A DNA stretch of 64,000 bases from Afipia sp. (GTDB taxonomy: Bacteria > Pseudomonadota > Alphaproteobacteria > Rhizobiales > Xanthobacteraceae). A program made the position numbers and the translations under genes. The stretch spans positions 371,162 through 435,161 of the forward strand of contig JANINQ010000001.1 of NCBI GenBank assembly GCA_024508675.1, read 5' to 3'. The stretch's first letter is position 1, and each line of letters starts with the position of its first letter. A model generated the notes under the pieces. The model saw nothing but the letters and a program-made list of their open reading frames with translations, did not search any database and was not told the DNA's origin. Of this stretch, positions 27,766 to 45,213 are shown in pieces.

Positions 27766-29559
<1,794 letters not shown>

Positions 29560-30708: not shown

Positions 30709-30873
30709 CTCGTGTGGTGGTTCGCAAGTCCGCATTGCTTTTGCAGCACACTCTTGTGCGGACTTGCGAACCAGAACCACACGAGAATTATTAGTTCCCA
30801 GGGTCCTTTTGAATCCGAAGTTCGCTCAGGAGTGTGCTGCAAAATAAAGCGAACTTCGGATTCAGGACACTGG
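30709..30873. other. Twin-hairpin element, copy 1 (complementary loops)
   Basis: H1: CTCGTGTGGT+GGTTCGCAAGTCCGCA / 22-nt loop / TGCGGACTTGCGAACC+aga+ACCACACGAG. H2: CCAGGGTCC+ttt+TGAATCCGAAGTTCGCT / 21-nt loop / AGCGAACTTCGGATTCA+GGACACTGG. Loops pair over 18 nt (ttttgcagcacactcttg / caggagtgtgctgcaaaa). Confidence 0.9.
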
Positions 30874-45044: not shown

Positions 45045-45213
45045 CTCGTATCGCCTATTGGAAGCTCCTGCGGCAGCAAGCTGCGATTCTCGTTCAGGAG
45101 CTTCCAATAGATAGCGATACGAGAATCATAAATTTGCTCGTGTCCCTTTGGCTCTGACATTCGTAAAAGAATTCGCTGCGATATGATACGAATGTCAGAG
45201 CCGGGACACGAGC
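45045..45213. other. Twin-hairpin element, copy 2
   Basis: H1: CTCGTATCGC+CTATTGGAAGCTCCTG / 24-nt loop / CAGGAGCTTCCAATAG+ata+GCGATACGAG. H2: GCTCGTGTCCC+ttt+GGCTCTGACATTCGTA / 21-nt loop / TACGAATGTCAGAGCC+GGGACACGAGC. All four stems perfect. Confidence 0.92.

Follow-up and report, generated by a model that had tools for sequence, protein, structure and literature searches.

CIR repeats, described from Caulobacter, Brucella and other alphaproteobacteria, are approximately 110 bp long and consist of two arms and a linker with a conserved GANTC at a terminal loop; their mobility was left open (PMC2229807). The element reported here, a pair of tandem hairpins (hereafter a twin) in an Afipia genome, is likewise two-armed with a linker, alphaproteobacterial, intergenic and non-coding, and GANTC occurs in many twins. 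It differs from CIR in its length (165 bp for copy 1, c1, compared with ~110 bp), in the complete absence of GANTC from six of 29 diverse twins and in its restriction in c1 to the stem arms of the right hairpin (H2). For the twins, CTAG feet, bulges that face inward, an empty site and nested copies are established. GANTC is present in the loops of 58 of the 358 hairpins found in a relative, G028, and some twins, including a second copy close to c1 (copy 2), have one in loop 1. As the length of c1 and the placement of its GANTC do not match the CIR description, against which the comparison was made, we refer to the family as CIR-like and not as a proven CIR. A first-pass annotation of the locus, made from sequence alone, had found no described family to which the hairpins belong. 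No Rfam family scored above its gathering threshold anywhere in the stretch analysed, where the best sub-threshold matches were microRNA-type hairpins, but that statement was too strong, as two-armed CIR repeats, the closest known kind, are similar and described (PMC2229807).

REP and BIME repeats with TnpA_REP (RAYT) share with the twins inverted palindrome pairs, bulges in the stems, a foot tetranucleotide and high copy number, and both the stem bulge and the tetranucleotide of REPs matter for TnpA_REP (PMC8266576). However, REPs are 20–50 nt long, carry GTAG and belong with a Y1 HUH enzyme (PMC8266576), whereas the twins have ~77-nt hairpins and CTAG, and most of their hosts have no Y1. The ERIC, Correia and RUP MITEs, for which a transposase is often not known, resemble the twins in being non-autonomous, mostly intergenic elements of ~100–200 bp with TA termini and variable copy number (PMC2229807, PMC10969869), but their stem is formed by pairing of the 5' end with the 3' end, whereas each twin folds as two independent hairpins. 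Palindromic intergenic repeats are also found in other Hyphomicrobiales (Bru-RS1 and Bru-RS2 of Brucella, RIME of Rhizobium) and in the same bacterial family (Br-REP1 and Br-REP2 of Bradyrhizobium). Compared by description, the Bru-RS elements are shorter than the twin at ~103–106 bp (PMC10800456), and Br-REP1 and Br-REP2 have unrelated consensus sequences and no CTAG (PMC5082802).

Architecture of the paired hairpins

We analysed a stretch of 64,000 nucleotides from an Afipia sp. genome (G000), hereafter the window. The first-pass annotation had reported two elaborate tandem hairpins at 30709–30873 and a second copy in the window. Direct reading of the sequence returned exactly these coordinates with the stems and bulges as described, and the second copy was located at 45045–45212. 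The features are as follows.

30709..30873: whole twin-hairpin element, copy 1 (c1), 165 bp with feet included, from a covariance match and the empty site in relatives
30709..30712: left foot, or target tetranucleotide, CTCG of c1 (family consensus CTAG), from empty orthologous sites
30709..30785, plus strand: left hairpin H1, which folds and contains covariation helices 1–2
30709–30718/30776–30785 and 30719–30734/30757–30772: outer (10 bp) and inner (16 bp) stems of H1
30735..30756, plus strand: loop 1, with the conserved core CAGC
30773..30775, plus strand: AGA bulge of H1, on the inward-facing 3' arm
30786..30797: AT-rich spacer of 12 nt between H1 and H2
30798..30873, plus strand: right hairpin H2, which folds and contains covariation helices 3–4
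30798–30807/30864–30873: outer stem of H2, with one mismatch; the inner stem starts at 30811
30808–30810: TTT bulge of H2, on the 5' arm, mirroring the H1 bulge
30826..30848, plus strand: loop 2, an inverted paralogue of loop 1, with the core GCTGC
30870..30873: right foot CTGG of c1 (family consensus CTAG)
45045..45212: copy 2, with stems differing in sequence from those of c1 (H1 45045–45123, spacer 45124–45136, H2 45137–45212)

The family unit is a left hairpin, an AT-rich spacer and a right hairpin, with inward-facing bulges of 3–4 nt and ends of the form 5'-TG...CA-3'. The predicted RNA fold of c1 has an energy of -100.6 kcal/mol compared with a mean of -59.0 for shuffled sequences (z -10.1, 0 of 200 shuffles), and the two halves folded separately as ssDNA gave z-scores of -11.4 and -8.0. 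A covariance model built from 29 sequences, c1 among them, matched c1 with 163.7 bits on the plus strand and 125.3 bits on the minus strand, and matched copy 2, also part of the model, with 150.1 bits (E 1.6e-33). c1 lies 4 bp past the stop codon of a gene and is flanked on one side by an ORF with no Pfam match and on the other by an MFS transporter gene. No promoter-like or terminator-like sites were found between 30500 and 31100, and the element is a conserved two-hairpin structure, in agreement with the earlier view that it is neither a terminator nor coding.

Insertion at CTAG and nested copies

A search with the neighbourhood of c1 identified the orthologous site without the element in two genomes, G004 (92% identity) and G018, and among the matches listed no element spanned the c1 site in other genomes of the genus. 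The empty site of G004 reads GCGCGCATGACGGG-CTAG-TTTATAGTT and the occupied site of the window reads ...CTCG-[TGTGG...GGACA]-CTGG-TTTATAGTT. Ten bases past a GCGC context, G004 continues with CTAG and TTTATAG, and in the same register the order in the window is CTCG, element, CTGG, TTTATAG; the tetranucleotide at the empty site of G018 is CCGG. From the in-register junctions of G004 and the window, the insertion amounts to 161 bp, one tetranucleotide among them, and took place at a CTAG-like site. The bases duplicated on insertion may be CTAG or TA only, as the sequence fits either.

The twins are most conspicuous in G028, a genome of the same genus (6.0 Mb) of which 2.0 Mb was covered by structure-based hairpin finding. 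A pattern for the outer ends had 258 + 214 matches on the two strands of G028 (472) compared with 0 for a reversed control pattern. The 2.0 Mb contained 358 hairpins (170 left, L, and 178 right, R), or ~180 per Mb, belonging to at least seven stem subfamilies, a density far above that of relatives; by extrapolation the whole genome would hold about five hundred twins. A one-sided bulge is present in 348 of these hairpins (97%) and absent from ten, and the bulge-less cases that were inspected have both arms alike. The bulge-erased hairpins at C1 2099808, 654849, 667526 and 743184 have a TTT-type insert in both arms or in neither.

All 116 neighbouring L-R pairs in G028 are separated by a spacer of 9–15 nt. 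Longer chains are nested like parentheses (e.g., LLLRRR and LLRR), with one CTAG common to the neighbours at each joint: an F twin lies within an A twin at 674718–675048, and F lies within B within C at 2242711–2243207. The short L-R spacers, the nested chains and the single CTAG at joints show that the moving unit is the twin, that its target is CTAG and that twins have inserted into the CTAGs of older ones. CTAG is rare in the window (18 observed, ~220 expected from base composition), which makes older twins a main source of targets. Two tandem twins with one CTAG in common also occur in Bradyrhizobium sp. LHD-71 (L244 5558–5889). At C1 ~3223970 in G028, a twin lies at the very end of a ubiG-like ORF, whose TAG stop codon falls within the CTAG foot. 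A twin entering at a C-TAG stop codon would leave the gene intact.

These sequence comparisons indicate that c1 is a copy of a small mobile DNA repeat that encodes no protein and has CTAG as its insertion target. We consider it likely that the c1 family as a whole is non-autonomous, MITE-like and CIR-like mobile DNA, with the whole twin as its unit and CTAG as its target, and with CTAG left on both sides. A mobile DNA repeat with foldable halves fits the option of a structured ssDNA or DNA element raised in the first-pass annotation. The hairpin pair thereby becomes a testable mobile-element system with a unit, a CTAG target, many copies, a heavily colonised genome (G028) and a covariance model, and it bears on the spread of two-armed CIR-type repeats, which have had no mobility mechanism in the two decades since they became known.

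Distribution and stem covariation

The window's genome has five full-length copies of the c1 type together with partial and divergent ones, and copies are present in all 29 Afipia genomes (1 to 42 matches per genome). The element pattern matched Afipia massiliensis DSM 17498, Rhodopseudomonas, Bradyrhizobium, Mesorhizobium, Pseudorhodoplanes and MAGs of related families, while BLAST searches, for which several members of the family served as queries, gave hits on plasmids or chromids of Roseibium, Aminobacter, Martelella, Rhizobium, Agrobacterium, Bradyrhizobium and Ochrobactrum. c1 itself had no match in the plasmid collection, an H2-type half had none in phages, and a literature search by sequence words returned nothing relevant. 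The copies are intergenic, with a few plasmid matches overlapping annotated genes, and one decayed twin was found on a Brucellaceae chromid. Twins of relatives are ~122–177 nt long (the shortest full-model relative being ~122), and a subtype of 122–133 nt in other alphaproteobacterial families has short loops (some 3–4 nt). This subtype keeps the CTAG feet, the spacer and the two hairpins and does not keep the loop motif; in one such sequence (L345) the outer ends are predicted to pair with one another.

The first-pass annotation had proposed a covariance-model search and had looked to compensatory changes in the stems as evidence. In a sample of 395 alphaproteobacterial genomes the search recovered twins in 24, and compensation was strong. 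In a plain MAFFT alignment of 29 diverse twins, which included c1 and copy 2 and several twins picked by a pattern fixing the central feet or by the hairpin finder, 99.0% of 1421 paired cells form standard pairs, and both sides have changed in 40 of 49 pairs (20 of 25 in helices 1–2, i.e., H1). The covariation score was 0.490, compared with 0.157 for shuffled and at most 0.097 for slid controls, and the double changes include A-T replaced by C-G with no G.U intermediate. The stems covary across subfamilies and genera. Between orthologues at the same site (22 pairs, not independent of one another), 41 stem differences were one-sided and 6 were two-sided and pairing-preserving, the latter located at the feet and in the outer stem. 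This suggests that most of the compensation predates insertion and arose while the copies were still mobile, consistent with a fold required for mobility. At these sites the inner stems have 15 changes in 1320 nt compared with roughly 13% in the loops, a comparison biased by the choice of copies for their similarity to c1; the slower divergence of inner stems could reflect selection at the locus level.

Mobilising enzyme and alternative explanations

If the c1 family is mobile DNA of this kind, an enzyme acting in trans would recognise each half as a folded hairpin, either as an extruded cruciform or as ssDNA. The features recognised would be the stem, the bulge and often a GCNGC loop, a motif that is present in 207 of the 358 loops of G028 compared with 16% of shuffled loops. 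The enzyme would cut at the CTAG feet and join the twin to a new CTAG, and stem pairing would be kept mainly because only foldable copies get copied, not by any service to the host.

We searched for such an enzyme among known transposase families. Y1_Tnp (PF01797) was detected in only three of the 29 genomes of the genus and was absent from G000 and G028. IS630 (PF13358) was absent from G000 and G007 and present only as fragments in G028; IS481 (NF033577) was represented by a fragment in G028, with none in G000 and scores below cut-off elsewhere; IS5/IS427-type transposases (PF13340) were absent from G000, G007, G003 and G012, with one fragment in G028. A decayed right hairpin in G028 (L354 ~1480–1560) abuts an IS5/IS427-type transposase (DUF4096) fragment, probably at a deletion or insertion junction. 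No gene-bearing autonomous copy was recognised in the 2.0 Mb of G028, where two of eight candidate L...R pairs were read and proved to be two separate elements with housekeeping genes between them, and a decayed copy in a nest; a loose arm-pattern search gave only noise. As neither a gene-bearing copy nor an enzyme was found, we infer the transposition step. The mobiliser may have been lost, may be of another family or may act in trans from elsewhere.

The most ambitious extension of the mobile reading, which we put forward tentatively, is a class-wide alphaproteobacterial system in which an unrecognised enzyme uses paired, folded, inward-bulged hairpins for insertion at CTAG without Y1, IS630, IS481 or IS5/IS427. 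Should that enzyme prove unrelated to known transposases, it would represent a new class of DNA mobility. It is unlikely that the twins instead derive from a DDE insertion sequence as ordinary MITEs, in which the outer arms would be terminal inverted repeats bound as dsDNA, the duplication would be TA or CTAG and the hairpins would be incidental. Targets of the CTAG/YTAR type are used by IS630, IS481 and IS5-group elements. The CTAG at both ends, the empty CTAG site and the TG...CA ends of the twins would all suit such an origin, and insertion at CTAG or TA, as in an IS630-type MITE, is seen here. However, the three families are absent from G000 and fragmentary in G028, and terminal inverted repeats alone leave unexplained why the inner arms have stayed complementary through subfamily changes. 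A REP/BIME-type repeat that depends on a Y1 transposase like TnpA_REP or IS200 would account for the two inverted hairpins, the tetranucleotides at their feet, the bulged stem and the copy number, but is very improbable given the scarcity of Y1_Tnp reported above, the far greater length of the units and the lack of GTAG.

The remaining alternatives concern the fold. Complementarity between loop 1 and loop 2 had led the first-pass annotation to suggest a kissing-loop or pseudoknot RNA. The complementarity is real in c1 (an exact 15 nt, or 18 nt when one G-U is allowed) and is the longest among 94 copies, but the loops of copy 2 are weakly complementary by eye and the property does not hold as a family trait: loops match no better within than between copies by local score (7.48 vs 7.32, with 18–23% of shuffles as good), longest exact match (5.6 vs 5.5) or duplex energy (-15.4 vs -15.2). 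When loop 2 is reverse-complemented, it follows the same consensus as loop 1 around the CAGC core, of which C, G and C are retained in 92, 92 and 93 of the 94 copies, and the complementarity is thus a by-product of H2 being an inverted paralogue of H1. With some relatives having loops of only 3–4 nt, a kissing-loop RNA is hardly credible. Neither an RNA-strand signature nor an effect of gene orientation was detected: in the stems G.U occurs 37 times and A.C 38 times (a test that is blunted if copies are read from either strand), and by an approximate codon-position gene call the element lies between tandem genes in the same orientation in 23 cases and in the opposite orientation in 27, between divergent genes in 20 and between convergent genes in 19. 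The equality of G.U and A.C and the random gene orientation therefore give no pointer to a functional RNA strand. They also count against a function for the host, as RNA or DNA, at the individual sites, for example the stabilising or destabilising of mRNA from a UTR proposed for REP and ERIC, as do the lack of a gene-end bias and the absence of c1 from its site in relatives. We regard this function as quite improbable, despite the long stable stems, the position of c1 just past a stop codon and the slow stem divergence between orthologues. That the covariation arose by mutation and not selection, with hairpin-templated repair copying one arm onto the other, is unlikely. The bulge-less hairpins of G028, whose arms are alike in the cases inspected, do indicate that arm homogenisation happens, and it could yield some covariation without selection, including the A-T to C-G changes that lack a G.U step; however, 97% of hairpins keep their bulge, and the same-site changes are mostly one-sided.

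Elsewhere in the window, a palindromic stretch with CCTC/GAGG flanks, GGCAGCTTCGCTGCC, lies between groEL-like and groES-like ORFs (29446–29559) and is dispersed-repeat-like.
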